Assembly: GCA_963678705.1 (NCBI GenBank)
Contig: OY783207.1
Span: 22,914,001 to 22,978,000 of the forward strand
DNA length: 64,000 bases
Direction: 5' to 3'
Origin: Panorpa germanica
Lineage: Eukaryota > Arthropoda > Insecta > Mecoptera > Panorpidae
Part shown: positions 2,856-62,490 of the stretch, piece by piece
Layout: each line of letters opens with the position of its first letter
How positions within the stretch are numbered: the first letter of the stretch is position 1
Made by a program: the position numbers and the translations under genes
The notes under the pieces: generated by a model
Databases searched by the model: none
Seen by the model: the letters and a program-made list of their open reading frames with translations, nothing else
Told to the model about the DNA's origin: nothing

Positions 2856-5800
2856 GTAAGTTATGGTTTGAATCATTAAGTTAACCCCAAAGGCGGATTT
2901 AGGTCGGTGGAAACCCTATGGACTGTTGAATTTTTTGGTCAATACATTGAACTTAAATGGATTAAATTTTTCAAGAAACTTTTTAGTCCCGTAGAGTGCT
3001 GAGCACAGGTGCTCAGTATTGAAATTTCTTAAAAACTCGTATCTGAACCTTGTATTCAGTTAAAAATTTATTCCGAAATTATAAAATTTAAAAGATTTAC
3101 AGAACATTGAAGTAATAGACGTCAATATTAATAGAATATGAAATTCATATTTTGATCTTAATTTATTAATTGCTTATCTAATATTGTTAACTATTGGATC
3201 AAATATAATAATTTGCTGCATTTACAAATAACTTTAATCCATACTGAAATTTATTAAAGTTTTGGTAAAATAATTAAGTGCCGCTAGATCGTAAAAATAA
3301 CACACTGTGACGCCTCGAAATCATGGATATCTAGTCACAATTGCTTTCAGTCCAACCATAAATTATCTTTTTTTATCTTTTCCGTAAGAAATCAATTTTA
3401 TATCATCATCTAGTCGGAAATTGTATTTCGGCGAAATTGGAGTCAGTAAAGTTAGTGAAAAATCGGCGTTGGTTAACTGCAATCCTTATCTATTACGATA
3501 AGATTTTATTTAAACAAATTAAAAAAAAATAATTGACCCCGACGTGATTTGAACACGCAACCTTCTGATCTGGAGTCAGACGCGCTACCGTTGCGCCACG
3601 GAGTCTTATATTTATTTTTGGTTTCTGTGTGGCTGCCGGCGTTTATTGCAGCACATTATTTTAATTATTAGTCAATTATGTATACTGAATTGTTTACAAA
3701 CAAAACCATAGAAAAGAACGTAATGAAATTTCTTTTAAATATTATCAGACATACAAACTAGATACAATCGAATAAGACAAATTCAATCGATTCAATTTAT
3801 AATTCAAATATCTTCTATCGTTCCATTTTTGGACACGTTGGGAAGAATATTTGAAAAGTTTGTCTCCGGCCGTGTGTGTTAACATAGTAAAAACCAATCC
3901 AAGAAATGCTTTGTATTGGTCACTCACGTCCCTTCTATACTGCCAAACTGAAAGACGTCACTCCAAAAATGTGTCGTTACTGTCTTAAGCTTACCTCTTC
4001 AAATTGCAAGAAAGTGGAACCCGCAAGAGTAATCAGCAAGGGGGGAGTAAGGTTTCAATTTTATTTTATTTATTTATATTAATGTACAACATATTAAGTT
4101 TATTGTGTGAAAATTTGGATTGGAGTAAAACTGTTGGAGATATAGAGTTTTAAGTTTTCATCTCTGTGGTCTGGTTTCGTCTTTCTTTGAAACTTTCAAA
4201 CGCGGTTTTCTCACACTTAGTTTTTTCAGAGTCAGTGTCATCTCTAGATTCATTCTTCACATTCTTTCTTTACATAAATGCCGAGGTTACGCCGTCGAGT
4301 TTTTTATTAATTTTAACGTATTTTAAAATAATAAAGTTTCTGATTTTTATCATGAAAAATCGGAATTTTGACTTCTAGGTAGATAAAAAATTGAAAAATT
4401 GGTTACCTGCGGAAACTAATCAACTAATGAAATCATTTTGGTTTTTTAATTTCAAATAATTCAGTGATGAGTTATGAGGGACACAGCAATGAAACTTTTT
4501 TTGTGACGTCTGCGGAGATTCGCTGTCAATGCCACATTTCTTGATATTTATTTATGAAATTCTTTTTACAAAGTAATCTATAAATATTAATCTTTTCATG
4601 TAGTAATTATAGAAATAATTATATATTAATTGTGTCGTCAAAAAACATTATCGAAAATATACTTTTCTTGTATCGATTTGGCCTTATCTGCCTCCCTTAA
4701 AATAATTTTGTCGTTGTCGTAGATGGATATGGATAGCACCATAAGACAGTGCTGTTTATTTTGTCTTAAGATCTAAAGTGTAAAATATATTATGTTTAGG
4801 TTACTGCCGTAATACTTCCAAGCAGACCCTATCAGGCCGCAGGTGGCTCTACGCGTTGTCAGCAGTGGCGTTCCTGGGATTTTACCTAGCAGCAGGTGCA
4901 GCGCTCTTCATGCTGTGGGAAGAAAACTGGAGCTTCTTCGAGGGCTACTACTTCTGCTTCATCACGATGACGACAATCGGATTCGGGGATCTCGTGCCGA
5001 GTGAGTTGTCCCCTAGTCTACCATCCATCACCGCCACAAATATCCTATTTAAACTTGTCTTCTTCCAGAACAACCGGACTACATGTTGCTTTGCACGTTG
5101 TACATTCTGGTGGGGCTTGCTCTGACGTCCACGATTATTGAACTGGTGCGGCGTCAGTACGCGCAATCTTGGCAACGTCTGCAGGCGTTATCGGGACCAC
5201 TAGCAGATACACTGCGCCGGCTTGGGGAATCTGCTGGAGGCGCTATGGACGTCAACGATTTGAGAAAAATGCTCACTGTGGTATGGCTTCATTTATATTT
5301 TCATTTAAACTGTCACATATTCTTTTTGTCGCGGTAATTAATACTAACGAGTGGTTGATCTAGCAGTGGCGGCTGCTGGCTTCGAGAACTGGTAGAGCAC
5401 GTTACTAGCTTATAGAGAATTAATACTAAAAATTACAATAAAATGATATCTGCTTATTAATAATTTTATTTTTTATATATTAAATCAACCGATGCCCCGG
5501 TAATTTTCGGTCTCAATTTTCTTAAATTGCGACGCACGGGTCAACACCAGATTCTTCATATAATTTGCACTGAGTACCTTTTGTCTCACGCGCTATGCGA
5601 GGTATCGCATATTCCATAGTAGTTATATTGAGCAGCTACTTGTATTGTGGCGCACGGGGAAAATTTCTTCGAGCGAAAATATGCTTTAATTAATTCGGTA
5701 TAGAGATTAAGTTGATTCCTTACAACTCCTTAAGTATAAAGTCAGTATGCCCAGTGGCGTAGCTACCGCCGTATCAGCATACGGGGCCCCAAATGTGTGT

Positions 5801-8800
5801 AAGCAAAAAATCGTAAAATGTTATTCACAATCTCACTTAAACTCTTAGGCCGTACTTCCCGAGAAAAACATCATATAGGATATGGAATTGATTTGTCCAA
5901 AGTTAGAGGAGAGGGTTATGATGAAGCAAATGTTATGTCAGGTGTATATAGAGCATTACAAGCCCCAAATGCCGATTATGTTCATTGTCCAGCACACGCA
6001 ATAAATTTAATTTTAAACGATGCTGCGAAACGTGTTCCTGAAGTGTCAATTTTTTTCGATAATTTGGGAAAACTATATACTTTTTTTTAGCAACAGTATA
6101 AAATGCTGGTCAATGTTGAGTAACGTTTCATCTGAAAAATATAAAATTACTATTAAAAAGGTGTGTCCTACTTGATGATCTTCAAGAAACTACGCTTTGT
6201 CAGCTATAAGGAAAAGTTATTCAATAATAATGAAAATTTGCAACAACTAAATTTAATTTCCACTAAAAAAGATTGTGACTATGATTGTGTACAAAGATTT
6301 CACAGCCTCTTTGACCTAACTCTCATCTTTTTCAAAAGAAATAATAAAAAAGTATATAGAGGCAGAAAATTTAGACAAACTGAAATTGTATTTAGTAATT
6401 AATAAATAAGTTCGCTGAACAAAAGACAAGGAAAGTATATATTTGATTTGAATTGTTTGGCTTAGATTAGTTTCTAGGAGTATTAATTGAAAGTAATAAC
6501 GTATAATCAATATATTATTATTTTAATTCAATGCAAGCGCTTTTGTTCCTTTTGGAAAAAATCTTTGCCCATTACTTGCCCTTCCTTCCCCCCTCCCCCC
6601 ACACACATTTGGATACGGTGCCCGTCTAAGACACGCTACGCCACTGAATATTTCCTATTTCGTAGAGAAAAAAGTTCTAAGACTTTTGGCGTCCCCGGAT
6701 TTTTCCCTGAATTTCCTGGAAACCCGTAATTTTGGAAAAACTGGAAAAAAATTGACCCCTTTTTTGCTGTATTACTTTTAATTTGTAAAAGATATAAAGT
6801 TGAAATTTTGCATGTGTATTAAGGTATTCAATGCTGACATTTCTCAAAAATTAGAAATTCAAATATTGAAAAAGGGGGGGTTGAAGAAATTCGGGGGCCC
6901 GGTATGGAACTTTGTAGAAAGTTCATATTCTGGATTCTAAAATAATTAAGTATATGATTAATAAAAAAAAATTCAAAATTTCAAAATTTTATTTGGGGGC
7001 ACGGGGGGCAGTATTTGCCGAGAGTAAAAATTGTGCTAGAAAGTTTAAATTTTGTATATAGGCTAACCTTGGTAACTTATTTACGAATCGAAAAAAAGAA
7101 TTCCAAATTTTGAAAAAAAGTTGGTCAAATAACGCATAAATTGAAAATATTTTTTATTTTGATAAAAAAAATATATTTTTTAGTCAATTTATATGTGTCA
7201 ATGTATATGTGCGAGTTTATTTATTATTTCAATTTAAAAATAGAACAGTGAAATATGAAATTTAATTACGAATTATTTTATTGGATTCAAATGATACACG
7301 CCAAAAAGAAGTCACTTTGCGACGGGGGTAAACTCTAGACGTTAAAAGAGACTTTAAAGACTTTAAAGAGAAAAAAATTCTAAGACTTCTAGCGTCCACA
7401 GATTTTTCCCTGAATTTTTTGGAAACCCGTAATTTTGGAAATGATGAAAAGGTTCAATTTAAGATTTTAAAAAATCATAAATTGTTTGTAATTTATAACT
7501 TTTGTAACTTTCTTTTCTAAAAAATTTGTTTGGATTTCTTGAAATTTTTTGATGCAGTTATGTTCATTAGGCTTTAAATTAAAGAACTGCTTCATTACAT
7601 TTTAATTATCTCCGCGATTCTGGCTTTTAAGCGACCTTTTTTAAATTCATGACAATTTTTTTCTAAATTTTTTTTTAATTTCTTGAACTTTTTTGATGCA
7701 GTTATGTTCGTTAGGGTTTAAATTAAAGAACTGCTTCATTACATTTTAATTATCTCCGCGGTTCTGGTTTTTATGCGACCTTTTTTAAATTCATGGACTT
7801 TTTTTTCTAAATTTTTTTTTTTTTTGATTTCTAGAAATTTTTTGAAGCAGTTATGTTTGTTAGGCTTTAAATTAAAGAACTGCTTCATTACATTTTAATT
7901 ATTTCCGCGTTTCTGGCTATTATGCGACCTTTTTTAAATTCATGGACTTTTTTTTCTAAATTTTTTTTTGGATTTCTTGTTTTTTTTTGACGCAGTTTTG
8001 TTCGTTAGGTTTTTAATTAAAGAACTGCTTCATTACATCTTAAATATCTTCGCGATTCTGGCTTTTATGCGACCTTTTTTAAATTCATGGACATATTTTT
8101 TCTAAATTTTTTTTTGGATTTCTAGAAATTTTTTGAAGCAGTTATGTTCGTTAGGCTTTAAATTAAAGAACTGCTTCATTACATTTTAATTATTTCCGCG
8201 TTTCTGGCTATTATGCGACCTTTTTTAAATTCATGGACTTTTTTTCTAAATTTTTTTTTGGATTTCTTGTTTTTTTTTTTCGCAGTTTTGTTCGTTAGGT
8301 TTTTAATTAAAGAACTGCTTCATTACATCTTAAATATCTTCGCGATTCTGGCTTTTATGCGACCTTTTTTAAATTCATGGACATATTTTTTCTAAATTTT
8401 TTTTTTGGATTTCTTGAAATTTTTTGATGCAGTTATGTTCGTTAGGCTTTAAATTAAAGAACTGCTTCATTACATTTTAATTATCTCCGCGATTCTGGCT
8501 TTTATGCGACCTTTTTTAAATTCATGGACTTTTTTTTCTAAAATTTTTTTTTGGATTTCTTGAAATTTTTTGATGCAGTTATGTTCGTTAGGCTTTAAAT
8601 TAAAGAACTGCTTCATTACATTTTAATTATCTTCACAATTCTGACTTTTATGCGACCTTTTTTAAATTCATGGACCTTTTTTATCTAAATTCTTTTTTGG
8701 ATTTCTTGAAATTTTTTGATGCAGTTATGTTCGTTAGGCTTTAAATTAAAGAACTGCTTGATTACATTTTAATTATCTCTGCGATTCTGGCTTTTATGCG

Positions 8801-11800
8801 ACCTTTTTTAAATTCATGGACTTTTTTTTCTAAAAATTTTTTTTGGATTTCTTGAAACTTTTTGATGCAGTTATGTTCGTTAGGCTTTAAATTAAAGAAC
8901 TGCTACATTACATTTTAATTATCTCTGCGATTCTGGCTTTTATGCGACCTTTTTTAAATTCTTGGACTTTTTTTTCTAAAATTTTTTTTTGGATTTCTTG
9001 AAATTTTTTGATGCAGTTATGTTCGTTAGGCTTTAAATTAAAGAACTGCTTCAATACATTTTAATTATCTCCGCGATTCTGGCTTTTATGCGACCTTTTT
9101 TAAATTCATGGACATTTTTTTTCTAATTTTTTTTTTTGGATTTCTTGAAACTTTTTGATGCAGTTATGTTCGTTAGGCTTTAAATTAAAGAACTGCTTCA
9201 TTACATTTTAATTGTCTCTGCGATTCTGGCTTTTATGCGACCTTTTTTAAATTCATGGACTTTTTTTCTAAAATTTTTTTTTGGATTCTTTGAAATTTTT
9301 TGATGCAGTTATGTTCGTTAGGCTTTAACTTAAAGAACAGCTTCATTACATTTTAATTATCTCCGCGATTCTGGCTTTTATTCGACCTTTTTTAAATTCA
9401 TGGACTTTTTTTTCTAAAATTTTTTTTTGGATTTCTTGAAATTTTTTGATGCAGTTATGTTCGTTATGCTGTAAAATAAAAAACTGCATCATTAGATTTT
9501 AAATATCTACGTAGATACTCAAAAAATTGCATTGCTTTTAAAATCATAAAAGTGAACCTTTTCATCATTTTTAACAAGATTATAGTCTTCTTTCTATATG
9601 GAGATTTAATATATTGATATATCACAAACTAAAATACTTATTTAAAAATGAATTATAAATTTGAAATCAGCATTCAAAATTAAGTTAAAATTCGTTATAA
9701 AATCACAAATATATTTTCTTCAATTTTTATGAAAAGTAAGAAGGTTACACTCTTCTTACTTTTCATAAAAATTGAAAATAAAAATCACTGGTTTTTTTAA
9801 CGGTTTTTTAACATAATTTTTAATGCTGATTTCAAATTTATAATTCATTTTTAAATAAGTATTTTAGTTTATAATATATCAATATATTAAATCTCCATAT
9901 AGAAAGAAGACTATAATCTTGTTAAAAATGATGAAAAGGTTCACTTTTATGATTTTAAAAGCAATGCAATTTTTTGAGTATCTACGTAGATATTTAAAAT
10001 CTAATGATGCAGTTTTTTATTTTACAGCATAACGAACATAACTGCATCAAAAAATTTCAAGAAATCCAAAAAAAATTTAAAAAAAAAAGTCCATAAATTT
10101 AATAAAGGTCGAATAAAAGCCAGAATCGCGGAGATAATTAAAATGTAATGAAGCAGTTCTTTAATTTAAAGCCTAACGAACATAACTGCATCAAGAAATC
10201 CAAAAAAATTTTTTAGAAAAAAAAGTCCATGAATTTAACAAAGGTCGCATAAAAGCCAGAATCGCAAAGATAATTAAAATGTAATGAAGCAGTTCTTTAA
10301 TTAAAAACCTAATGAACATAACTGCATCAAAAAATTTCAAGAAATCAAAAAAAAAAAATTTAGAAAAAAAAAGTCCATGAATTTAAAAAAGGTCGAATAA
10401 AAGCCAGAATCGCGGAGATAATTAAAATGTAATGAAGCAGTTCTTTAATTTAAAGCCTAACGAACATAACTGCATCAAAAAATTTCAAGAAATCCAAAAA
10501 AAATTTTTAGAAAAAAAAGTCCATGAATTTAAAAAAGGTCGCATAAAAGCCAGAATCGTGGAGATAATTAAATTGTAATGAAGCAGTTCTTTAATTTAAA
10601 GCCTAACGAACATAACTGCATCAAAAAATTTCAAGAAATCCAAAAAAAAATTTTAGAAAAAAAAGTCCATGAATTTAAAAAAGGTCGCATAAAAGCCAGA
10701 ATCGCGGAGATAATTAAAATGTACTGAAGCAGTTCTTTAATTTAAAGCCTAACGAACATAACTGCATCAAAAAATTTCAAGAAATCCAAAAAAAATTTTT
10801 AGAAAGAAAAGTCCATGAATTTAAAAAAGGTCGCATAAAAGCCAGAATCGCGGAGATAATTAAAATGTAATGAAGCAGTTCTTTAATTTAAAGCCTAACG
10901 AACATAACTGCATCAAAAAATTTCAAGAAATCCAAAAAAAATTTTTAGAAAAATAAGTCCATGAATTTAACAAAGGTCGCATAAAAGCCAGAATCGCAAA
11001 GATAATTAAAATGTAATGAAGCAGTTCTTTAATTAAAAACCTAATGAACATAACTGCATCAAAAAATTTCAAGAAATCAAAAAAAAAAAATTTAGAAAAA
11101 AAAAGTCCATGAATTTAAAAAAGGTCGAATAAAAGCCAGAATCGCGGAGATAATTAAAATGTAATGAAGCAGTTCTTTAATTTAAAGCCTAACGAACATA
11201 ACTGCATCAAAAAATTTCAAGAAATCCAAAAAAAATTTTTAGAAAAAAAAGTCCATGAATTTAAAAAAGGTCGCATAAAAGCCAGAATCGTGGAGATAAT
11301 TAAATTGTAATGAAGCAGTTCTTTAATTTAAAGCCTAACGAACATAACTGCATCAAAAAATTTCAAGAAATCCAAAAAAAATTTTTAGAAAAAAAAGTCC
11401 ATGAATTTAAAAAAGGTCGCATAAAAGCCAGAATCGCGGAGATAATTAAAATGTACTGAAGCAGTTCTTTAATTTAAAGCCTAACGAACATAACTGCATC
11501 AAAAAATTTCAAGAAATCCAAAAAAAATTTTTAGAAAGAAAAGTCCATGAATTTAAAAAAGGTCGCATAAAAGCCAGAATCGCGGAGATAATTAAAATGT
11601 AATGAAGCAGTTCTTTAATTTAAAGCCTAACGAACATAACTGCATCAAAAAAATTCAAGAAATCCAAAAATAATTTTTAGAAAAAAAAGTCCATGAATTT
11701 AAAAAAGGTCGCATAAAAGCCAGAATCGCGGAGATAATTAAAATGTAATGAAGCAGTTCTTTAATTTATAGCCTAACGAACATAACTGCATCAAAAAATT

Positions 11801-14800
11801 TCAAGAAGTTTAAAAGAAATTTTTAGAAAAAAAAGTCCATGAATTTAATAAAGGTTGCATAATAGCCAGAAACGCGGAAATAATTAAAATGTAATGAAGC
11901 AGTTCTTTAATTTAAAGCCTAACGAACATAACTGCATCAAAAAATTTCAAGAAATCAAAAAAAAATTATAGAAAAAAAAATCCATGAATTAAAAAAAAAT
12001 CGCATAAAAGTCAGAATCGCGTAGATATTGAAAATTTACTTAAACAGTTTATCAATTAAAAGTGTAGCGGATATAGATCAATTAAAAAATTAAACACATT
12101 TGAAATATTAATTATGTAAAAAAGAAATACATAACTCACACTCGTTGTCTTGCGACGGGCCGAACAGCTAGTATATTATAATGTCCCTGGTGAATATTTA
12201 TATTCTTATATGTTATGTGTTTATATGTTTGGTTCGAATTTTGTATGGCATCTCGAAAACGGCTCCAGGGAAGTTTTTAAAAATTTCCTATTTCGTAGAG
12301 AAAAAAATTCTAAGACTTTTGGCGTCCCCGGATTTTTCCCTGAATTTCCTGGAAACCCATAATTTTGGAAAAACTGGAAAAAAAAGTGATCCCTTTTTTG
12401 CTGTATTACTTTTAATTCGTAAAAAATAGAAAGTTGAAATTTTGCATGTGTATTAAGGTATTCAATGCTGATATTTCACAAAAATTAGAAATTCAAAAAT
12501 TGAAAAAGGGGGGGTTAAAGAAGTTCGGGGGCCCGGTAGGGAACTTTGGAGAAAATTCATTTTCTGGATTCTAGAATAATTAAGTATATTATTAATAAAA
12601 AAAAAATTCAAAATTTCAAAATTTTATTGGGGGGCACGGGGGCAGTATTTGCCGAGAGTAAAAATTGTGCTAGAAAGTTCAAATTTTGTATATAGGCTAA
12701 CCTTGGTAACTTATTTACGAATCGAAAAAAAAATCCCAAATTTTTAAAAAATATTGTTCAAATATCGCATAAATTCAAAATATTCTTTATTTTGATATAA
12801 AAAATGTATTTTCTTAGTTAGTTTGTATGAAAAATTATTTGTTATTAAATGTAAAATCAATATAGGACGAGTTTATTTATTATTTCAATTTAAAAATGGA
12901 ATTAAATTTTGACATGAAATTCAAGCCACTCACAAAAAACAAACGTCGCTTGCGACGGGGGTAAAAGCTAGTATAATTATAAAGAATAAGTACTAAATAT
13001 ATTGAAACTACTAAAGTATATTTATTATCTAATCTATGATAGATATAAAAAAATTGATTACGTTATCAATAATGTTTCAACGAAAACATAAAAAAGTATG
13101 TGACCCCGACGTGATTTGAACACGCAACCTTCTGATCTGGAGTCAGACGCGCTACCGTTGCGCCACGGAGTCTTATATTTAGATTTGTTTTTCCTATATC
13201 TGTAGATATTTATTAGATATAGTCAATAATGATGCTATAACACCATATGGTTTCAACGTATTATAGTGATGAAATAAACTTTCACATATTCACATCATAT
13301 GTATGGTTAGTCGTATAAATAACTGGCACTTTCAACGAGATTATTTCGAAAAGCAACTCGATCTCAAATAGTTAATTGGAACCCGCTCTCATGTTGTTTC
13401 AGCAGATTCGTAGCCGGCGCTGCACAACTTTTTTTCCGTTTTCCTTTTCTTTCATATTTGATACTATAAATTCAGTCAGTCTGATGCGACCATTGCAGAC
13501 CGGTGTATGCTTATTTTTTAGTCAAAACTGTCAGCGTTGTCTCGCTGTGTTCATTGTGTACATATAGTGTTCAAACAAAGTATTGTATAGATTATTATGC
13601 AGAGATGATATTTGTTCCTTGCTTTGTGTCTTTCTTGTTGTCTGTGCCAGGCTTCAAGCAAAAACCTTTTGTATAGATTTTTTAGTTGTTAAATAATGGT
13701 CCTCCCTTCTCCAGTGTCCATCGTAATTTGTCGTTGCGCCAGGTTACCAGGCCACCATTCTGCCATTTTTTTAATCCCATCTGATTCCATCCTAATCATC
13801 CATCATTGTGTGTAATTAAAGGCAAAGTATTCTAGAGTAGGAGCACACTCGAGTTAAGTGCACATTTGAATTTATTTGTTTAAATTCTTAAACAATTTTA
13901 AGTATTTCAGTATCTTTTAAGAGTTAATAAATGAATCTACAAAGAACTATCTTGGCATTCTTAACAAAACTGATGTAAACAATCTAAATTTACTGACGGC
14001 GTTTAAACAGTCCTGTCCCTACCCCTTCCACCCACTCTCCTCTTACTCCACCAGGAAATCATGCAGCAACGTGATTAGATTCAAACATTTCTAAAATTAA
14101 GCGAATATGTTTGAAATCAATGATTTAGGGAATTAGTTTCGAGTAAATAATTTCAATTAAATGAAAACAACGTATAAATATCAGTCACAGATCGCTGTGT
14201 GTGTGTAGGAAGGAGTGCGGTTGAAGAAGAGGGAGGAGGAGGTAAACGGATATTGCATAGTGCGGAATAAATGTTTGTTTCTAGGAAAATAATTAATTTC
14301 ATCAATGTTGAAAATTAGATTAGTTATAAATAATTTTAATAGGCTAAAAAAAGCAAAAGAGCAGTTGTCTTTGTTTGTTAAATGCGTTCCCATGGAATGG
14401 TCTTTATCTTTCTATGACAAAGACAAGGACAAAGACAAAGACAAAATCGTGTTAAGGCAGTCGTGTCTGCAATGTGACACCGTCCTAAATACTTAGTTGA
14501 CTACAAAATTGTTTTGTGCCAATGTACGTTCTGCTCTTCGGGGCACAGGTGGAGGAACAGGTGAGCCATGGCTCAAGTCAACATTTTACAGAGGCTCAAA
14601 ATTTAAGAATACCTGTATATTCTTTTGTCGCAAAAAGTAGGTAATGAAATTTTAGTAAGTTAGAAGTTTTAAAGACGTACTTGTGGTCTCCGTTGAGACA
14701 AGAACTCTAAAGTGAACTAAGAAGATTAGATCCATTACCATCTAAATCTTTGCTTAGTCAAAAACGAGTCGTGAAAAATTCAAAATCAAAAATTCAAAAA

Positions 14801-17800
14801 TCCTAAATCATTAAAGCATATATTAACACAATTGTAGTTTATGATTATGCCTGATGTTAGTCGATATGTAAAAATAAAAACCAGGCGAATTTTGCTACTA
14901 AAATCTAACTCCCATTGGTCGTTTTACAGGGATAGATTTCTAAAATGTAGTAACTATTACGGCATACTTTCTTAAATTTTAAAACATTAAAAAGTATTAT
15001 TTAAGTTCGAAATTAGAAAGCAACGACTAATTTTTAGAATTTAGAAGTTAGATGCCTGAACTTTATATATAACTAACTATAGATTAGAAAGCATTTATCC
15101 AGTACTTTTCTTTTCTTCTTTGTAATCTTCTATTTTTAACACGACTTTATTATACTAGTTTTCTGTAAATTCGAAAACTTACCGATGAAGGAAAATAAAC
15201 AATTACCCCTCAATCACCCTAGATGTCTCTTCCTTTGCCTGCGAAATAATGATTGATTCTAAAGTATTATCAATAATTTATATTCATCAAATTATTGTTT
15301 AGTTATTAGTTTAGTTAACGATATTTGAGCTACTGGTTTGGTTTGACCTGCCTAATACCATAATAATTTAATTTAAACGTATGAAGCCATATGTCGTTTT
15401 AGCCAAGCTGAAATTTTGCGAATAAATAGTATAATATGTTGTTAAGAACCTATGCGTACTTGCTAGCTTGAAGGCGGGGTTCTTTTTTAGGTAGCGGGTG
15501 CAATAGATACGTAAAAACCACATTCTCCAAAGTGAAAGTATCATGGCTGTTTTTTTATATGTTTTGTAGAATATTGTTAAATCGAACATTCATTATTGGC
15601 AGAACCGTCCCGTTAGTCCTAAGATTGTCAGAAGTTAGATACTACATGACGGGTCTTGAAATAGTGAATGTTGCTAATAGTGGAATATTTCACTTTTTAT
15701 TCTGAAAATTTCTACTTTATTAAAAGACAGGTCCCAGGGCTCTGGGATCTTTGACTACAATGATCACTGTGTGCGACCCAATTCATTATCAGATCTATTA
15801 AATTACTAAATCTAAACTTTCAATATCCATTTTAAATTTGTATTTTAAATACAGCCTAAGAATTAATTAGGCACTCAGCATCATCCTCAGTCGACTCCCT
15901 GTTCTTAGGGTTCTAGAACGTGACCCATTGCCGGGCCAGGCCGGATCCAGACATTTGGTTAAGCCTCTGGAATCTGGATTGCATTAAAGTCGACTGGATT
16001 TATGTGTATAAGCCCGCTGTTCTATTATTTAGAAAGAAAACGAAGCAGAAATCGGTGGTGGGGCTGTGGGTGCTGTGGGTGGAGGCGCTACACAGCCAAT
16101 TTGTATTGTAAAGTTTATTAGAAAGAATTTTGTTTTTATTTTAAAGAAAGATAAATGTCTTCTGCAAAATTTACCGTGTTTGTAAACACCCATTAATATT
16201 TCCATTGGCTAGTAGATGGTTTGGACATACCGCGCAGTGAGGCGGGGTGAGCTGATTGCGGGGTAATTGTTTATTTCGCTCCATCGGGAAGTTTTCGAGT
16301 TTACAGAAAACTAGTATTAAAAGTCGTGTAAAAACTAGAAATAACAAATAAGAAAAGAAAGAAATTAAAAAACACTGAATTAATGGTTTCTAACCCGTCT
16401 TAACATCTTAAGCTGTTCTCATACCGGAATAGATTACGCTAGCCTTCGAACAGCAGTCTTATTCTGACTTGCAATTTTCATAGCTTTTATGTATGGTGAA
16501 AATAATTGTATTATAAAATGAACCTTATATATGCTATTTCTGCTATAAATTTCATATACTATGGTGACACTAATGAATCTAAAAATAAGTTATACAGTTA
16601 ACAGAATAGGTGATCCTTAAGTATTATTAGCACTCACTGTTTTAATTTTGTATTTAATTTAAATTTTATAGCTTATGGGAATATGCGTAGTCATTCCCTG
16701 CTCCATTTTTAATTTAAAATTGAATGTACGTTTTCATTGTTTTTTTTAGAACCTTACAAGATGCAATGTTTTTAAATTAAAAATACTAAATTAAAATAAA
16801 CTATATTATATTATAAGCTTGAAAATGTGACAATCTGTCAAAATGCAGTAGGATTTATTTTTAAAAGAAGTTCAATGTCAGTTTGTAAATATAAAGAAGT
16901 AAAACCAATTTCTATTACTAATTGTAATTAAAAACAGCATTTTAAAGATTCCAAATTTAATTTAGTCCAACTGTCAAAATTTATATTACTAACGAGTAAC
17001 GACGCATGCGCACCAACTAAATAAACTAAACTCAAATTAAAACACGAATGTGACAAGGAAAACTTATTCTGAAAACCTGAAATTTATTAATATAATAGAA
17101 TATTATAAATGTTAAATAAAAACGTAAATTAAATATCAAAACAGTGAGTGGGAATGAGGCTTAAGAACCTGAAATTTACCGCCATTGGTATATGTAGTTA
17201 CTGTATAGTTTACAGGTTCCCAAACTAGAGACCCCGCTAAAAAGAATATAAATGTAAATGAATACAAAATACAAAATACTAAGTGATAGTACAGTGTGCG
17301 AGAGAACTGATGCTTGACGCTGACTGCTGTGTCTTCGGTTCAATGCCCAGACCAGAGTTCTATTTTCTGGGTTTGGTTGCTATTAAGTTAAATTGATTTG
17401 TACTTACATACCATAATCATAAACTTATTAAGCAGCGGCATAACCCACATATATGAGCCCACGACATCACTAAAACTGCCAACATAGTAGGCGGTCGTAG
17501 GTGATAAGTAGCATTTACAAACCAATTCCAATACGCTTACACTTCTGAAATATTTTATATTTGAAACTTGTCATGTCTAATGTTTTTTCAACAGTAAATT
17601 ATTAAATTAGTCAATTATTCAAAGAAATGGTTTTGGATCATCAGTTCAAAATTTGTTTTAAAATTCTAAGCTGGGCGACTCATTTTATCACAGTGATATA
17701 CGAGGATAATCTGGTAAATTGATAACTTGAACAGCAATTTTTCTTAAATTCAATTTATTTATCAACATTCTTTTCCTTTGGCTTTATTGTTCCATCCAAA

Positions 17801-23800: not shown

Positions 23801-26800
23801 ATCGCAACATAGAAGTGTTATACATAAGCGCTTTTCCACGGGGTTTTCACAGGGTTTCCACAGGGTTTTCACAATGTATAAGGCATCATGAATCTCTCAG
23901 GAGATGTTTTTGTTGGAAATATGTCGGAGGAAAACTAACATTCAGGTCGCACGTCATGAAAGATTATCGTCTTTAAAAGAAAACATTAAGCACGGAAAGA
24001 TGGAAAATGTGGACTAGGCTTCCCGGAAAATTAGCATTCAGCGTGGCTACGATTACAGTGATAGGCATCGTAGATAACGCCTGAAAAAGGGAAACTCGGG
24101 AAATGATAGAATGATTGATAATGTTGGGCTTTTTCTATTCAGTAAAATACAAAGGGAGATATATTTTTCTAATTTCTTTAAAAACCTTTCCAGTTCCCAT
24201 TTCTATGCTATGTATTGGCGTAGTAAATCATTTCGACTCCATTTCAGTTCATATTAAATTCAAATCATAGAAGATTCTATAATAAAGTGTTCGCCCAGAC
24301 TTCGTTGTTTCACAAAAAATGTCTCGGTGATATGCTATGTTATTTTAAAAAAGTAGTAAGTCGAAACATGTTTTCCATGAAAGAAATAGGGTTCACACAT
24401 GAGTGTTCGTGTCTGAATAATCTTTGTTCGAAGACGCATGTGTAGATACAAAGTTCGTGTAAACATTTGGTATTCGTACACCAGCACTTTCGGTTCAGCA
24501 TCGGTAAAAATAACAGATCAAAGCGGGCGAATATTTGTTTCAGTCATGTTCGAGGTACCATACACCATGATTTAGAGGTGTGGAGGCCCTGAGTCAACAA
24601 AGGAGCGGGGGCACCTAATTATTTTCCGAAGAAAAGTCTTTCAAAAATTTATTACTTTTATCTCTATTGTGAGGGCTCCTTTCTTGTGGAGGCCTCAGTG
24701 CAGTGGCCCCGCCTGCCTTTCCTCAAATTCGGGCCTGCCGTACATACTATGCGTTGACGACTATTGCATTAAACCATAACCTACATTTGAACGTATATAA
24801 ACATTTATTACACAATGTTAACAATTTTTGCCAAGTATTTTTGTTATAGTATAAGTATATAGTATAATATAGGAATGAAATGTATAGGAATGAAATGTAT
24901 TAGAAATATAATACTGTAGATTGTAAAGCCGAAAGGCATACACAATTAATATATAAATAATAAAGTATAGTATAGTATAGTATAGTATAGTATAGTATAT
25001 TTTTTTTTATTTATTTAGGCTTTGGCTTATTCAGCCTTCTTGCCATTGCTTTTATTTGTAAAATTATATAAAAATTTACATATAAATTATAATTGTTCTA
25101 ATAAATACAAAACAAAATGATTCTTTTAAAAAATTAAACTTAAAATTAAATACATACTAAATAAAATATTTTAACTTAAATTACACTTCTATATTATTTT
25201 CTATCACAAAGTTTGTTAATATTTCCGCCGTTGCTTCACTTGTCATTAAACAGGACATATTGACTGGGAACTGTGTTACATTACATAAATCATTTAAAAG
25301 TCTATCAATTTTTGATGTTAAAAGATGACACCCTAGAATTATATGGTCCAAAGACCCTTCTTCTCCACATCTACAATTTGGTGTGTCTTTTATATTTATT
25401 TTGTATAGATGAGCTGGACATCTAGAATGCCCAGATTTCATTCGACAATTTGTTGAAATATATCTCCGTGAATGATTTTTATTAAACCATGTGGTTGTTG
25501 GAATTTTTTGATTCGCTGCAAAAAACAATTTTCCAGTACTTTGACTTTTCTCATTATATATATTCTGCCATTCTGCCATACAATTTTCTTTAATTATTTT
25601 TTTGGAATCATTTATTGACCAATTTATTTCGATTATTTCCCCATCTACACAAGCTTCTTTGGCCAGTTTGTCAGCCATTTCGTTTCCTTTTATGCCTACA
25701 TGTCCAGGAATCCAAATAAGTTTAACATTGATATCATTTTTTTCCATTTTTAAAAGATATTCTTTAATTGAACATATTTTGTTATTATTATTGTTTTTGA
25801 ATTTATTGTTATTTAAAGATACACAAACACTACGAGAATCTGTGAAGATTAATATATTTTTATTGTCAGTTTTTTGTATTATTTCTAGTAATTTCATAAT
25901 TGCTGTTATTTCTGTATTATAAGAATTTGTGATGTTGTTAAGTTTGTATTTGTACTGTTGATCTGTATTATAATTGAAAATGCCAATTCCTCCAGTTTTA
26001 GAGTTTTTTTCGAATGAACCATCGGTAAACCATATACTCCAGTTTATATCATCTTTTGTTATATATTCCATATATTTTTGATAAGTTATTTCCTTACTGT
26101 CATTCTTCTTGAACAAATTTATTTCTGTATGTATTGTTGTCATGCTTATTTCTAATGGAAATTTGAAAAAAGGTATAATGTTGTGTACCTCTAAGTTCAA
26201 GTTATTATATCTATCAAAACTAGTTAAAAGTGCCGGTTTTTTATGAGTTGTCCAATATGGTTTATTATAAAGAACATATAGTTTAGATAATCTTGTATTT
26301 AAGGGGCCACATGAGTTATGTCTGTTTTTACAAAAGAAACTGTCTGATATTTGTTGTATTCTGATATTTACCGGAGGAATATTAGTTTGATAGTTGAGGA
26401 TTTGGATTGGTGTTGAAACCATTGCACCTAATATTATTCTTAAACATTTGTTTTGTATAATTTCAATTTTTTTTAATCTTGAGTTATTTGCGGTGCAGAT
26501 CATAGTACTAGAATAGTCAATATGCGGTCTAACAATAGCTTTATATATTTTTATTAAGGTTGTTGGGTGTGCGCCCCATTTGTATCCTGCTATACATCGC
26601 ATCAAATTTAAGCCTTTTTGACATTTGTTAATAATATGTGCAATTTCTTTCGCCCAAGTGCTTTTCGTATCAAAGAATATACCCAGAAATTTGGTATTTG
26701 AAGTAACAGTTATATTTTTATTTCTGATGGTTATTTTTGGACTGCAGTTTATTCTATGCCTTGTAAATATAACTATTTTACTTTTTTCTGACGATATATT

Positions 26801-29800
26801 TAATTTGATTTCCTTTAATAAAATATCTAGTTTTCTTAATTTCGATTGTAATCTGTTTTGAGCTATATCTTGTGTATGACCCATACTATAAATAACCATG
26901 TCATCTGCATACATCAGTACTGTTGTGTTGTTATCTGATAATGTTGTTAACTTTTCTGTGTATATGTTGAATAATAAGGGAGATAATATTGAGCCTTGTG
27001 GAATTCCGTGATTACATAGTATAGGACCAGTTAACTTATTATTGTATCTAACTGTTATTTCTCTATTTTGGAAGTAGTTTATAATCCAGTTGGATATTTT
27101 GGAAGATATACCTATGTTTTCTACTTTTTCTTTTAATATTTTTAGATTAACATTGTCATAAGCAGCTTCAATGTCAATGAAAGCAGCTATCATATAATGA
27201 TTTTTACTGTATGTTCTTTGAATATCGATATTCAATATGTTTAAGTTATGCTGTGTACTTCTTGTTTTTCTAAACGCAAATTGTAACTCAGGTAATCTTT
27301 TATGATGTTCGAGATACCACTCCAGTCTGTTTTTGATGATGGATTCCATAGTTTTGCCCATACATGATAGTAAAGTAATTGGTCTGAATGATTCTTCTTT
27401 GTTTGGATCTTTTCCTGTTTTTAATATAGGAACAACGATATGTTTTTTCCAGTCTAATGGTATATCAGCAGTGTTTAATGACAGATTGTATATTTGTGTA
27501 AGATGATTTATTGCATTGTCAGGTAAGTTTTGTATCATTTTGTAATTTATTCTATCAAATCCTGTGCTACTGTTTTTATTATGATTTAACGCGAATTTTA
27601 CTTCATTTTTATTTATGTTATTATCTAGAAAATTATCTTTTACGATGGTGGTGGTAGTAATATTTAAATTGTTGTTCTGTGGAAATTTTTTTTTAATGAA
27701 TTCTTCTATTAAATTTTCATTATCACTTATCCTTTTAGTACTATAGCTTTTATTGTTAATTTTTCTTATATTATTCCAGACAATGTTGGTTGTTGTGTTT
27801 GGGTTTAAATTCTCGCAGAAATTTTGCCATTCTATTTTTTTTCTGGCTCTAAAATATCGTCTGGTTTTAGCTTGATGTTTTTTATAATTTAAATAATTCG
27901 CCATTGTCATGTTTTTATTAAAAATAGTTAGTGCTAATTTTCTTTGAGCTATCATTTTATTGCACTCAGTGTCCCACCAAGACGGTTTTATTTTATTAGG
28001 AGTTATATTATACAATCTGGTAGATGGGATATGTATGTCTGCCGAATTATTAATAACATCTCTAAATTGGTTGTATTTGTTTTCAACATCTTGGGGATTA
28101 CTTGTGATTCCATTTGTGCTAAGGTTTGAAATTCTGCTTTCTATTTCAAGGCTATATTTCTCCCAATCTGCTTTTCGGAAATTTCTCCTCGTTAAATATT
28201 CAGATGTACGGTAACGGTCTTTATTATAGTCATTCAAACAGAAAAAAATTGGGTAGTGATCACTACCTAAGCAATCTGCAAGAACTTGCCACGAAGTAAT
28301 TTGTTGTGTTAACGTCATTGATACCAATGTGAGATCCAATATACTGTCCCTTGTACTGAGATTGCTTACTCTAGTTGGTTTATCATCGTTGATAATATTT
28401 AGATTTTCGTTTTCTATGAAATCTAACAATTCGTTACCTTCATACTGACTACCTGGACAATTTATATCCCAAGCAAGATTAGTCGCGTTAAAATCTCCAG
28501 CAAGTATAACAGGAACATCTATTTGTTGTTTTATCTGTGACCAATTAGAATTAGATAGTTTATGATTCGGTTTAGCATAGATTGATAAAATACATATTAC
28601 ATCAGTTTCGTTATGTGTTAAAATTATTCCAACTATTTCGACCGAATTAAATGGGTTATTTAGCATTACTCGTTTATATTTTATAGATTTATGAATCAAG
28701 ATAGCAACACCCCCGTGGGGATTATAGTTTGTATTCTGTATCCTATCTTCTCTTTCAATAAAATAACCTTTGATGTTGAAATTGATATTTTTTGTTAAAA
28801 ACGTTTCTGATAGTATGCATATATGTATGTTATGCTTCTGTAACATATGTTGTAGTTCCTCTTTAATATATCTGACTCCTCTGCAATTCCATTGAATAAA
28901 ATTTATCATTTTAACTGTTTTAATTAATTATTGATTTTTATATCTGTCCTTGGTCTTGTTGTTAGATTTATTTATATATTTTATTTTATTTTATTTTCTC
29001 TCCGTTTATATAATTATTGTTGATTTAATATTTTAGTAAATTTATTAAACGATTAGGTTTAGTGATGTGAATAGATTTTTTTAAAAATAAACTTAATTTA
29101 TATATCGATGTTTTCTTACGAGTTTGGCCATTGTACACTAGATATTTGTTTCTTGTAGCTTCTAAGGGATTGGGATGTAATATTTGGGTCTTTGTTTGTA
29201 TTTTTAATTTTGTCATCATTATTTTTATTATATATTGATGTATAGCAGGTATCATTATCATTGTTTTCCATTGTAATATCAGGTGTCTCTTGGTTGATTT
29301 GCTTTCTGTTTTTTCCTTGATTAGTTATCTTAAGGTATGTGTCGCTTTCTTCATTGTTAGGTTTCTTTTCTTCTCTTCTTCTTTTTGGAATTGGTTCTTT
29401 AGTGGATGTCGTAGGTTGTGGTTGACTGTAAGATCTTTGTAACGAGTTACCTGTATTTGATTTATTCACTCTGGTATTAGTTCTTCTGGTTAAAGGGTTT
29501 GGTTTGTATGTTGGAATTATGTTGATACTATTGTATTTATTAGTGATATTGGGAAAAGTCTCATTGTAGTTTAGAGCTTCAAAAGAGTTTTGAGTTCTTA
29601 CTGAGTATAAATAGTCTGTATTTTTTTCTGTTAATTCTAATTTTGCTTCATAAAAACTGAGATTGTGTTGGGCCATGAGATCTTTTATCTTGATTTGTCT
29701 TTTTTTTTCAGGACATTCATTGTCTGTAGCCTCGTGGTTAAGTTTACAATTTATGCATGTCGGATTAGGAGATGTGCATGCAGTACGTAAATGATCTTCA

Positions 29801-32800
29801 CTTCCGCAGAATTTACATTTTGCTACTTTTGCTCTACATTTTGTGGCTGCATGTCCAAATTTAAAACAATTATAACATTGTATCGTCTGTTGTACAAATG
29901 GTTCACATGCTCGTCTCACTCTCCACATGTAAACATAAGCAGGAATAGCAAGTCCTTCAAAGAATAATTTCACTGTTGTACTGGGTTCATATTTAATAGC
30001 TCCGTCAACTCTTAGTTTTCGATTTAACCTTTGCACTCTCGTTACTTTAAAAGGTGGACACTCTATATTATTTAAAATTGTATCTTCCGAATATTCAATA
30101 TCAACACCTTTTATAATAGCAACTTTTGTGCACCAGTAAAATGGGATAAACGCTTCATACCCATTGTTTTTCAGCAATGTTGATTTGGTAATTTCGTTAG
30201 CTAGTACTGCATTAGCACATTGAACGATTACTCTATTTCTTCCCACTTTTTTAATTTCTATTATATTAGATTTATTGCTAATTTTACATATTATTTCTGC
30301 TAATTTAAGAGAACTAAAAAATGTATTTCCATCACTATTATTTTTAACTATCATTACTTTATACGAGTCATATTTTGTTTCTGTGTTGTATAAATTATTA
30401 AATATTTTTTTAACATTGTCACTATTGTTATTTAAGTTTTCTGTTATATCACTGGATGTTTTATCTGTAGGAATTGATTTGTTAGTCACAGAGTTGTTTT
30501 TATTGATCGGATTTTTATCGGGAGGTTCAACCTCCATATCCATATTGTTAATTAACCAGTGATAATTAAATAGAAGTTACTTCACTTCTAATTAATAACA
30601 CTTAATAATAATATAAATTATAATTTAAAAAAAAAATAAATCACGAAAAAAAAATATTATAATTTGCAAAAAAAAAAGATAACTATTTATTTTATTGTTT
30701 TGTTTATTGTAAATACGTGCGCTCACCAAGAAGACTCGATGTAAACTGTAGTATAGTATAGTATAGTATAGTATAGTATAGTAAAAACAAATTACTGTAA
30801 TACTCGTAATCTAACTCCTATTTTATTTAAAGGAATATGTCATAAGATTAAACAAATGTTCGGGTGTTGAATATTTGCTATATTTTAAAAACAAGTGTGA
30901 CAGGTTGTTCGGTAAATAATCATGCACGTTCACTTGATCTTAAATAATTGTATATGCCTCGGGCGGTCATTAATTCTCGTGGGCGCAAAATTCCGGAAAA
31001 CACTGGGTAATTTTTAAATAACATTTTTTTAGTCCCTATGATGACTGTGAGGGACAACTAAGCAATCCTATTACTTTGCTTTAAAATTATTATTTATCAC
31101 CAATGAAAAGTGAAAATTAAAACTTAAAAAGTACGCTGTGTGTAGCGAGTAGAAGGGTGCCAATGTCAAGATCTTGTCCCGGTTCGAAAAAATCGTAGAT
31201 CCGTTACTGCGTAGTCTTGATTGTTGATATTAGCACCACTATTTTCTAACTTTGTGAATGCAAACTGCGCTCTCACACTAGAAGCTACAAAGCCGTTCGA
31301 ATACATACGTTTATTTGACTTTACGACTTAGGGACAATAACACCATACTGAACCCCAAAATGTGGTTCGTAACAACAACCACCTGTAAAGAATAAACGAT
31401 TCCATCAAATATACTCGATTGTGAGAGCTCTAGCCGGTCAACCAAGTCAAGATGACCGGCGATCACTAGAAGTCTGTTTCAGCGTGAGTGCAGCCTAAAC
31501 AAACATCACTCAGAGTACAGATGAGTGGACGTCGCTAAGCGTAGCTATAATAAGGCGAGTACTGGACTACTTATAGTGAACAGAAAACCGATACAAGAAG
31601 TCATCTTGAAATTTTTAGATAATGAATTATGATGCTGATGCAACGTAATGACAACAACACAAATAACAATTCAGTAAAATTTTGTTTGAAAATTGAAAAA
31701 TACTTTATATTTGTAACTTAAAACCCAAACAGTAGTGCAGATATGATCGTGACAACTACGCTGAGTGTTGCTGCATATCTTGTTTGTGTTCGGTAGTATA
31801 GCTTGTTTCATTGCACATTTATTTCGTTGCCACATCACTACTACTGTTCGATTCATTACTGAAGGTAATTAAAAAATTAATTACTTACTACTTAAAATTA
31901 ATTAATAACGTTGTCAATAAAATTCATTTTTTTTAATAAGGTCTGTGACCACGATTTTTATATTTTTTTTTTTTTTTTTTATTTAACGTCGGCCTATTTC
32001 CGATGCTGAGTCCTATCACCGACGACCTCCTTCAATGTTGGCAGTATTTATGGTGTCGTGGCCTCATATATGTGGGACGATTTTTATACCATAACAAATT
32101 TTAATGAAGTTCCTGCATTATATTTGGAATTTACACAAAAAAAATCTCAAAGTAAAAATTTGTTTTCTCAATAAGAGCCCGTATTAAAATTACAAAATTT
32201 GAATTTGTTTTTTTTTTTAAATGGCGTCAATTTTAAAATATTTAGGCTCATATGATTTGTATTTAATCAAAGAATAATTAAGCAAAGTTTTATTAAAAAC
32301 TGTCATTAAATGCAACCAGTGAACATCTATCTTAACTAAGCCATGTATTCTGTGGACACCTCCTAACAATATTTTCGTAATAAACTACAAATGAAACATC
32401 ATAAAAATTGACAGTGTTTTTATTTAACAAATACTCGCATATATCTCGTAGAGTGACATTAGAAGTTAATGGTACTGTGCTTTGAGCAGACTGACTGAAC
32501 TGACATAGGTCTTGTAGACGCATTTAGCGATCTTGAACGACCTGTCGTTTTGATCTTCAACATCTGCGTTTTCACATTTATTCAATACTTCGATAGCCTC
32601 TTCGATTTCGCTCTCAGTGGGTTGCAAGTCCAATTTGCTGGCCGAAAATTCAACGTACTTCCTAGGGGTGAAGGCGCCCTCTGCGTCTATTAACTGGAAT
32701 GCCTCATTGACGCATTTGTAGTAGGGCTTCCACTCAGCAGGGACATCAGCGTCGTCCTTAATGTAGTTTCGTAAGGATGTTATTGATTCTCCTGCAATTC

Positions 32801-58443: not shown

Positions 58444-59130
58444 CTAGAGTTTACCCCCGTCGCAAGCGACGGCTGTCTTTTGTATGAATTGAATTTTGTT
58501 TCAATTTTTAATTCCATTTTTAAATTGAAATATTTAACTCGTTCCATATTTATTTTACATATAACAGCAAATAAATTTTCATATAAACTTACTAAAAAAA
58601 ATTTTTTCATTATTTGAGCAACTTTTTCTCAAAATTTGAGATTTTTATATTCGATTTGTAAATTAGATACCAAAGTTAGCCAATATCTAGTCCAATTTTT
58701 ACTCTCGACTAAAACCTTGTGTCCCCAAATAAAATTTTTGAATTTTGAGTTATTTTTTTATAATATCATATTCAAAGATTACACAATCCAAAATTTGAGT
58801 TTTATTCAAAGTTTCATACAAGGCCCCCTAGTTTCTTCAACGGTCCCTCTAGTTTTCAAAAAATATTATTATATTATTATAATATTATTAAATATTGAAC
58901 ACCGTAATACATATGTAAAATTTCAACTTTCTATCTTTTACGAATTAAAAATTATAAACCAAAAAGTAAAAACTTTTTTTTAGTTTTTCCAAAATTACGA
59001 ATTTCCAGGAAATTCAAAGAAACATCCGAGGACGCGAAAAGTCTTAGAATGTTTTTCTCTACGAAATAGACAATTTTTAAGAAAATGTGCGGAGCCTTTT
59101 TCGAGCCACCATACGAATCGCGTAAACATA
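58444..59130 (-). mobile_element. Non-autonomous Helitron, inverted and diverged copy
   Basis: On the minus strand it ends in hairpin CGTCGCTTGCGACG, GGGGTAAACT and CTAG (58444-58447), followed by T. The body matches the Helitrons at 6650 and 12210, including TATTTCGTAGAGAAAAA and GGCTCC. The 115-codon frame across it is incidental. Confidence 0.7.
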
Positions 59131-59477
59131 TAAACATGTAAACTTTCAGTTGAAACATTTTAATATAAGAAGATAAGTTCAAAAATGAAAATTTTAAAAC
59201 GATTGAAATTTTATTTTGTATATTTCAAAAAATATGTACTCAGTACCGAAACAAATTACCGCGAAAATAGTACTGAATATCGGTCTAAAAAAGAGTGAGT
59301 GACGGGGTCTTAACTGTTACTATCATTATTCTTACTTTATTTAGCATCATTGTTTATTCTACTTCTTGCTCCTCTGGTTATTGTCCTTCATCCATAATTC
59401 ATAGATTACCAACAAAACCAAGACAACATGTCTTAAACATGTGTTAAACAAGATTAAATGCATTGATTTGTACATTA

Positions 59478-61641: not shown

Positions 61642-62490
61642 ATGGGCTTGCAAACTAATTTTTATGGGTCGTTTTTATTAATTTTTTATTGAAAAATAGG
61701 TTAACATATGTATATTAATTTAATATTTAATTTATTTTAAATATAAATTTTATTTAAAATTTAAATTTCAGTTTTACCGCTTATGCTAGCTCTGCGGATG
61801 ACGTCACAGAAAAAATAAGTAATCGAGATATTATTTTTTACAACAATTATAGTATAGATCTTTATGGAATCCACGACCTAGCTGTTAGTAGTTCATGACG
61901 TATCACACACACTCCTGTATGCACTTTTGTTGTATAAAAGAGATGGACAATCATCGGATATGATATTACACCCGGAATAATTTTTTATAATTTTGGATCT
62001 CTTTAATGATTTATAAAATGTCAAAAGGTCAAAAATGACTTTCTTTTAATTATTAATATCTCCTATAATATTACGACTTATTAAGAAATATTTGGATATT
62101 TAAGGCTAATTTTAACAATATATAGTAAAGTTTGTTGCAGTGGCGTAGCTACCGCCGTATCAACCGTATCAATGATACAGGGCTCTGGGCTACAAGGGCC
62201 CCAAATGTGTGTAAGCAAAAATTCGTAAAATGTTATTTACAATCTCACTTAAACTCTTAGGCTTCGCTTAATTCATAGGAGTATTAATTATAAGTAATAA
62301 CGTATAATCAATATATAATTATTTTAATTCAATGCGAGGGTCTTTGTTTTTTTTTTTGAAAAATCTTTACCCATCATTTGGGCCCCCCAACAAATTTTGA
62401 TACAGGGCCCGTCTAAGGCACATTATGCCACTGGTTTGTAGAATAACTCGTAGTTCACAAATTTATAGAGTTATTGGGAAAATCTTACTG
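61642..62490 (+). mobile_element. MITE-A, diverged copy holding a nested hAT
   Basis: Starts ATGGGCTTGC. Internal stretches (CAGTTTTACCGCTTATGCTA, TGGATCTCTTTAATGATT, CAATATATAGTA) follow the order of the copy at 1362 with considerable divergence. The hAT derivative at 62138-62435 is inserted near its right end. Confidence 0.45.
62138..62435. mobile_element. 298-bp hAT deletion derivative of the 5.75-kb element
   Basis: The left end CAGTGGCGTAGCTACC and about 130 following bases, plus the right ~170 bases, match both ends of the element at 5752-6646; the transposase part is missing. The target duplication is GTTTGTTG / GTTTGTAG (7 of 8), the 8 bp expected for hAT. An extra CCGTATCAA-type duplication lies near the left end. 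Confidence 0.88.

Follow-up and report, generated by a model that had tools for sequence, protein, structure and literature searches.

A 64,000-nucleotide stretch of the Panorpa germanica genome (assembly GCA_963678705.1, contig OY783207.1, positions 22,914,001 to 22,978,000 of the forward strand), which we call the window, contains at 6647-12171 an element whose body consists of opposed tandem arrays of a ~146-bp unit around a ~0.5-kb palindrome (7507-12091). Two K2P pore exons lie upstream of the element on the plus strand, at 2645-2881 and 4784-5122, and the window is otherwise insect-like, with a PBP/GOBP-family exon, carboxylesterase exons, and a reverse transcriptase/RNase H retroelement. 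As argued here, the element is very probably a Helitron of the non-autonomous kind, with two satellite-like arrays forming a foldback as its body. Its parts, some of them defined by alignment with four full copies at other loci (L010-L013), are listed below.

6647-12171, plus strand: whole copy of the putative composite Helitron, truncated at its 5′ end and with right end CTAG (alignment with L010-L013; 3′ end)
6647-7338, plus strand: F module, putatively another non-autonomous Helitron; its 3′ end (7317-7338, TTGCGACGGGGGTAAACTCTAG) has become internal (alignment, folding)
7339-7441, plus strand: junction segment, a spacer and a repeated 75-bp piece of F (7367-7441)
7439-7472, plus strand: outer copy of the IR module, in the orientation of 9926-9960
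7507-9442, plus strand: left array, a partial unit and 13 units of ~146 bp, with a dimer duplication
9443-9535, plus strand: innermost unit L14 (diverged, shortened) and tail, identical to R14
9536-9575, minus strand: IR module left of the axis
9576-9920, no strand: X arms and axis (palindrome alignment; fold)
9921-9960, plus strand: IR module right of the axis
9961-10053, minus strand: innermost unit R14 and tail
10054-12091, minus strand: right array, 13 units and a degenerate edge, with a pentamer duplication
12050-12171, plus strand: 3′ terminal region, ending TTGTCTTGCGACGGGCCGAACAGCTAG and followed by T

Tandem Repeats Finder located the left 146-bp array at 7507-9508 (13.7 copies, 90% matches) and the right array at 10191-12049 (12.7 copies, 94% matches), and self-BLAST matched 7509-11979 to the reverse complement of the same segment (92.6% identity over 4502 bp). 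Segmentation gave 14 unit starts per arm, comprising 13 approximately full-length units and a diverged, shortened innermost unit, and a partial or degenerate unit was also present at the outer edge of each array. A preliminary description of this DNA, made from the letters alone, had counted about 29 monomers in two opposed arrays, and the segmentation agrees with that count; the inverted arrays it placed at 7441-12085 are real, but the arrays run from 7507 to 12091 and the mobile unit from 6647 to 12171. It had also placed them within a K2P intron, which the two K2P exons, both upstream, do not establish. At the centre, the arms 9443-9752 and 9743-10056 were identical at 292 of 305 aligned bases, with no mismatches in the outer 180 and most of them in the innermost ~75, outside the axis stem. 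The axis itself contains a 25-bp perfect stem within 9718-9777, and the fold of 9721-9775 had an energy of -21.2 kcal/mol (z -10.7).

The two arms are related but are not mirror images. Units L14 and R14 were 100% identical where aligned, and mirror units farther out differed (94% for L12/R12, for example). Each arm has its own unit duplications, a dimer on the left (L03-L04 = L05-L06, 97-98%) and a pentamer on the right (R03-R07 = R08-R12, 99-100%). Because the same unit variants occur in both arms (L03/L05/R01; L04/L06/R07/R12; L13/R13/R06/R11), the array was probably diverse already before the second arm was made.

We searched the genome assembly (464 Mb in 249 contigs) with 7441-12085. The search yielded 1569 initial candidates; 33 were scored, and 20 other loci (L010-L029) were fetched with their flanks. 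In all 21 loci (the 20 fetched and the window), plus-strand units preceded minus-strand units around one centre, and the central modules were present; L015 has no 3′ end, leaving its orientation unset, and in L021 a second element begins after the first. The fetched loci are the best matches to a query that is itself a palindrome and are thus biased towards foldbacks, so 21 of 21 speaks for recurrence and not for frequency. Arms contained 4-24 units, with lengths that varied both between loci and between arms, and extra copies of central modules were found in L016, L018, L020, L024, and L028. A module of about 196 bp, X-IR-L14, was duplicated near the axis in both arms of L016 and L024 and in one arm of L018, L020, L028, and L060. 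The IR module beside the axis matched 1352 places in the genome and its control none. Opposed arrays were thus seen at 20 of 20 fetched loci. The preliminary description had called the axis single-copy, which it is not, as the centre modules recur at the centre of other loci.

Near-identical inverted pairs are a known shape of assembly artefact, and an assembly-level or read-level foldback was considered for this reason. The arms, however, are not mirror-identical and carry different unit duplications, their lengths differ between loci and between arms, and the structure is common to many independent loci. The inversion was therefore not made by the assembly, and an artefact is next to impossible.

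The arrays lie within an element that has fixed ends. First, the left boundary (TCCTATATTATAATGTTCCAACTG) was intact in six loci (L010-L013, L017, and L018), where the element starts TCCTATATTATAATG. All six intact 5′ ends begin TCCTATATT, the TC start expected of a Helitron. An A precedes five of them, and the sixth (L017) is placed at the CTAG of a different Helitron. L012 carries the initial ~35 bp of its 5′ end twice. Elements in these six loci were 3639-6419 bp long. Second, the right boundary of the family reads ...CACTCGTTGTCTTGCGACGGGCCGAACAGCTAG, and 17 of 21 loci hold the 3′ terminal region, one of them (L026) with changed last bases. Among the 16 intact 3′ ends, 15 were CTAG, in line with the CTRR terminus of Helitrons, and one (L027) was TTAG, and the next base was T in every case (chance of ~5e-8 at the T content of the window), with flanks beyond that do not resemble each other. 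Third, the 3′-terminal 28-mer matched 100 places in the genome at two or fewer mismatches, 25 of them exactly, and the reversed control matched none. The 146-bp array lay just upstream and in the same orientation in 20 of 20 sampled places (16 exact and four with one mismatch, two of them at loci already scored in the array search); because the 28-mer included CTAG and T, these bases in the sampled places are not independent evidence. Finally, the joined flanks of L018 matched window positions 16645-16995 and L012 (reverse complement of 8943-9253) at ~72%, both uninterrupted paralogues. Neither paralogue had a gap at the insertion point, which reads A|T in the window paralogue and G|T in that of L012, and insertion of the L018 copy was thus accompanied by no target duplication, gain, or loss.

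Of 25 distinct flanks, 11 had TATAA in the first 20 bp after the insertion and two had it in the following 20 bp; among A|T sites sampled from the window, the motif accompanied 68 of 987. It may reflect a target preference, for a motif that was picked after the flanks had been seen. Nearly the same sequence (TAGTAATAAATTGTTCTACTT...) follows CTAG in L030 (two ends), L037, L043, L049, and L050; at these ends, either a single insertion has been duplicated or the element extends past CTAG. L031-L034 and L046 are linked by a comparable shared flank.

The ends and the empty site bear on the class of the element. The preliminary description had proposed a foldback transposon of the FB type. A classical foldback DNA transposon, of the FB/Tetris Mutator kind or the Galileo P kind, would require a transposase that acts on its terminal inverted repeats, and both layout and unit length have parallels in such elements. 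Published excerpts on Tetris, a foldback transposon of Drosophila virilis, describe arm units of ~220 bp; as in our element, two arms of long tandem units surround a middle domain, the element is non-autonomous, and the number of units varies (PMC4079207). Excerpts on Galileo, a foldback-like member of the P superfamily in Drosophila, likewise describe long tandem repeats in inverted arms, including a D. willistoni copy, the longest, with ~140-bp repeats and inverted arms of 4.2 and 4.7 kb (PMC4168063). Judged by these excerpts, long units in foldback arms are not unprecedented. The same sources, in contrast to what we observe, place the Tetris arrays inside terminal inverted repeats with target duplications of 8-10 bp, the authors suggesting the Mutator superfamily (PMC4079207), and give Galileo terminal inverted repeats, target duplications of 7-8 bp, and a P-type transposase (PMC4168063). 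In the window copy, the two outer ends do not form an inverted pair (their only local match was 20 bp of low complexity), and the 5′ and 3′ termini of full copies differ. One end is TC and the other CTAG, with A|T flanks, and no target duplication was seen at L018, the one copy tested. On the strength of the differing ends, the A|T insertion, and the empty site, FB/Mutator-type and P-type transposons were rejected, and we regard a classical foldback transposon as extremely unlikely. The mobile character and foldback layout of the preliminary description thus stand, but its class does not. Its further suggestion, that transcription across the arrays would yield a long hairpin RNA and hence possibly siRNAs, is speculative.

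Among rolling-circle elements, a Helentron or HINE rather than a canonical Helitron was the second possibility. Helentrons insert at T|T, whereas the elements studied here insert at A|T and have TC...CTAG ends, and we therefore consider a Helentron/HINE-type element very unlikely. In its favour, array-carrying forms are best described in the Helentron/HINE branch, at least in excerpts on Cg_HINE of the oyster Crassostrea gigas, a Helentron type with subterminal inverted repeats (PMC7492417). Like our element, Cg_HINE elements are non-autonomous, rolling-circle, and spread satellite-like arrays through the genome; unlike ours, as described in those excerpts, their repeats make up one central array flanked by left and right modules, with no opposed pair (PMC7492417). 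Searches of the open-access PMC literature listed no title or beginning of an abstract that describes a Helitron with a foldback, palindrome, or opposed arrays. DINE-TR1 of Drosophila reportedly consists of Helitron-borne tandem repeats linked to satellite DNA; we know of no opposed arrays in it.

A canonical Helitron also has candidate helpers in this genome. A search for Helitron N-domain genes gave 893 first candidates, and all 150 that were scored exceeded the cut-off; two open frames, of 1119 and 1489 amino acids, carry the Helitron N-domain together with a PIF1 helicase. A RepHel protein from autonomous Helitrons of the same genome would move the element by single-strand rolling-circle replication, and its arrays may lengthen or shorten by unequal exchange or slippage. 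One RepHel locus of 3.5 kb (L055) contained a 15-mer resembling the 5′ end with two mismatches. In viral contigs, the 146-bp unit had no matches and the 3′ motif had one (L001), in a run made without a control.

We asked how the palindrome is inherited in eight recent copies (the window, L010-L013, L017, L023, and L026). The 248-bp cores of their arms were nearest to same-side arms of other copies, left to left and right to right. Of 170 array units compared, after units aligning over less than ~120 bases were dropped, 140 had all of their nearest neighbours on the same side, and for none did the only nearest neighbour lie in the other arm of the same copy. Because same-side arms match across the recent copies, the palindrome existed before their spread; in these copies, arm comparison shows that the palindrome is inherited whole and moves as a unit. 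In L014, L016, L020, and L027, which are older copies, some arms were nearest to their own opposite arm.

This pattern of descent also bears on a local origin, in which a satellite array at this locus would have undergone inverted duplication unrelated to transposition. The degenerate edge units are satellite-like, and both arms contain recent unit duplications. Against this idea, the same centre modules and opposed arrays are found at the 20 other fetched loci, and recent left arms are closer to the left arms of other copies than to their own right arm. Dispersed copies with fixed ends contradict a local inverted satellite, which we hold to be exceedingly improbable; with their common central modules, these copies bear out the preliminary view that the element is mobile, with a foldback layout, rather than an ordinary satellite.

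How the second arm arose is suggested by L025, in which more of the X module is preserved at the left outer edge, where homology of the outer IR module continues into X. The left array is therefore bounded by X-IR modules in opposite orientation, an arrangement that fits a strand switch; the palindrome may thus first have arisen when such a switch copied the array and its IR-X module back on itself. Another candidate, the left half as an element in its own right with short inverted IR modules as its boundaries, was rejected, as these modules recur in other arrays and no element ends were seen.

Several results weigh against the readings given above. With respect to the class assignment, the 3′ hairpin of the family is weak (-2.4 kcal/mol, a short stem with a wobble pair; 151 of 200 shuffles folded as well), the empty site was found for one copy only (L018), and the window copy has no 5′ end. 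Family ends around a RepHel gene were seen in neither of two loci searched over 9.9 kb, with RepHel termini unmapped, and in none of six searched over 3.5 kb. With respect to a conserved foldback, the central modules are rearranged in L019, L021, L022, L025, and L028, and only one of five elements that were picked by the 3′ end or the IR module and seen at length was two-armed. These five comprise two elements in L030, the first two-armed and the second with one array, and one each in L059, L060, and L061. L060 has the axis and a different repeat on its left side, and L059 (1886-4490) and L061 (642-3179) contain the IR module in direct tandem, at spacings near 227 and 173 bp, as a different repeat built on this module. 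Given these mixed forms, the foldback is a form that recurs among a broader range of array-carrying elements. With respect to inheritance, mean unit distances were only slightly separated (8.85% to the same side of another copy vs 8.93% to the opposite arm of the same copy), and arm pairs over all copies averaged 3.3% within copies (17 pairs) vs 5.7% between copies (686 pairs). Subfamily structure may explain the latter gap, with room also for arm conversion or separate older origins. Regarding the hairpin, a variant (GCAACGGG), found in 17 of the 100 28-mer places and also seen with CGTTG, would pair better as judged by eye.

The window copy belongs to a composite subfamily. In L010-L013, the 5′ end is followed by the F module, which is Helitron-like and has a 3′ end of its own, and then by a junction and the foldback unit; L017 is a short form that lacks most of F. 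The window copy is of the composite form and starts at 6647, where a hAT-like fragment stops, and its 5′ end is missing. Positions 6647-7245 were 89.6% identical to 12280-12901, in a separate F copy. The internal 3′ end of F (7300-7340) folds poorly (-0.9 kcal/mol), and that of the separate copy (12932-12971) had an energy of -4.7 kcal/mol (17 of 200 shuffles as good). In the composite subfamily, the stop signal of the upstream Helitron, F, may have weakened and been read through into the foldback unit, which would have fused the two.

Two further F-type Helitron copies were found in the window, at 12172-12971 and, on the minus strand, at 58444-59136. The first directly adjoins the foldback element, and its 5′ end lies against CTAG without the TCC. 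Elsewhere, in L058, one of the RepHel loci covered over 9.9 kb, positions 1-267 hold an F-type Helitron end, with the gene of an autonomous-type Helitron downstream, as another pair of neighbours. The hAT-like fragment (5752-6646) ends GCCACTG and had a DUF4371 match below the cut-off in 5803-6087; a second hAT-like copy (62138-62433) joins sequence like 5784-5850 to sequence like 6448-6646, as would an internal deletion derivative. Two minus-strand tRNA-Trp genes (3534-3614 and 13101-13181), identical over 81 bp, flank the element on both sides, and an Rfam search of the window at the gathering threshold found nothing except two tRNA matches. The minus-strand retroelement at 25181-30576 has two long open frames of 486 and 1248 amino acids, the longer of which has endonuclease, reverse transcriptase, and RNase H matches.

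The Helitron intermediate is thought to be single-stranded. On this background, the foldback may be more than cargo, with self-complementary arms that would snap into a hairpin on the moving single strand and could prime the second strand, protect the strand, or stall the replicating complex, making new palindromes and arrays in each round. We consider this role unlikely. If it were true, the hairpin at the centre and the recurrent duplications of the X-IR-L14 module would be side effects, and Helitrons themselves would generate inverted satellite pairs, a source of palindromes not assigned to Helitrons in the foldback and Helitron literature compared here.

A foldback of satellite-like arrays looks like an unusual variant of rolling-circle (Helitron) elements and not a new system. 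Tetris and Galileo, as far as the excerpts describe them, have long terminal inverted repeats and belong to cut-and-paste superfamilies, and here the same topology is found inside what is very probably a rolling-circle element. The element would thus be a natural test case for whether Helitrons tolerate or generate palindromes of several kilobases, and how. Through it, pairs of opposed satellite arrays could also be dispersed across a genome, where such arrays could seed rearrangements and double-stranded RNA.

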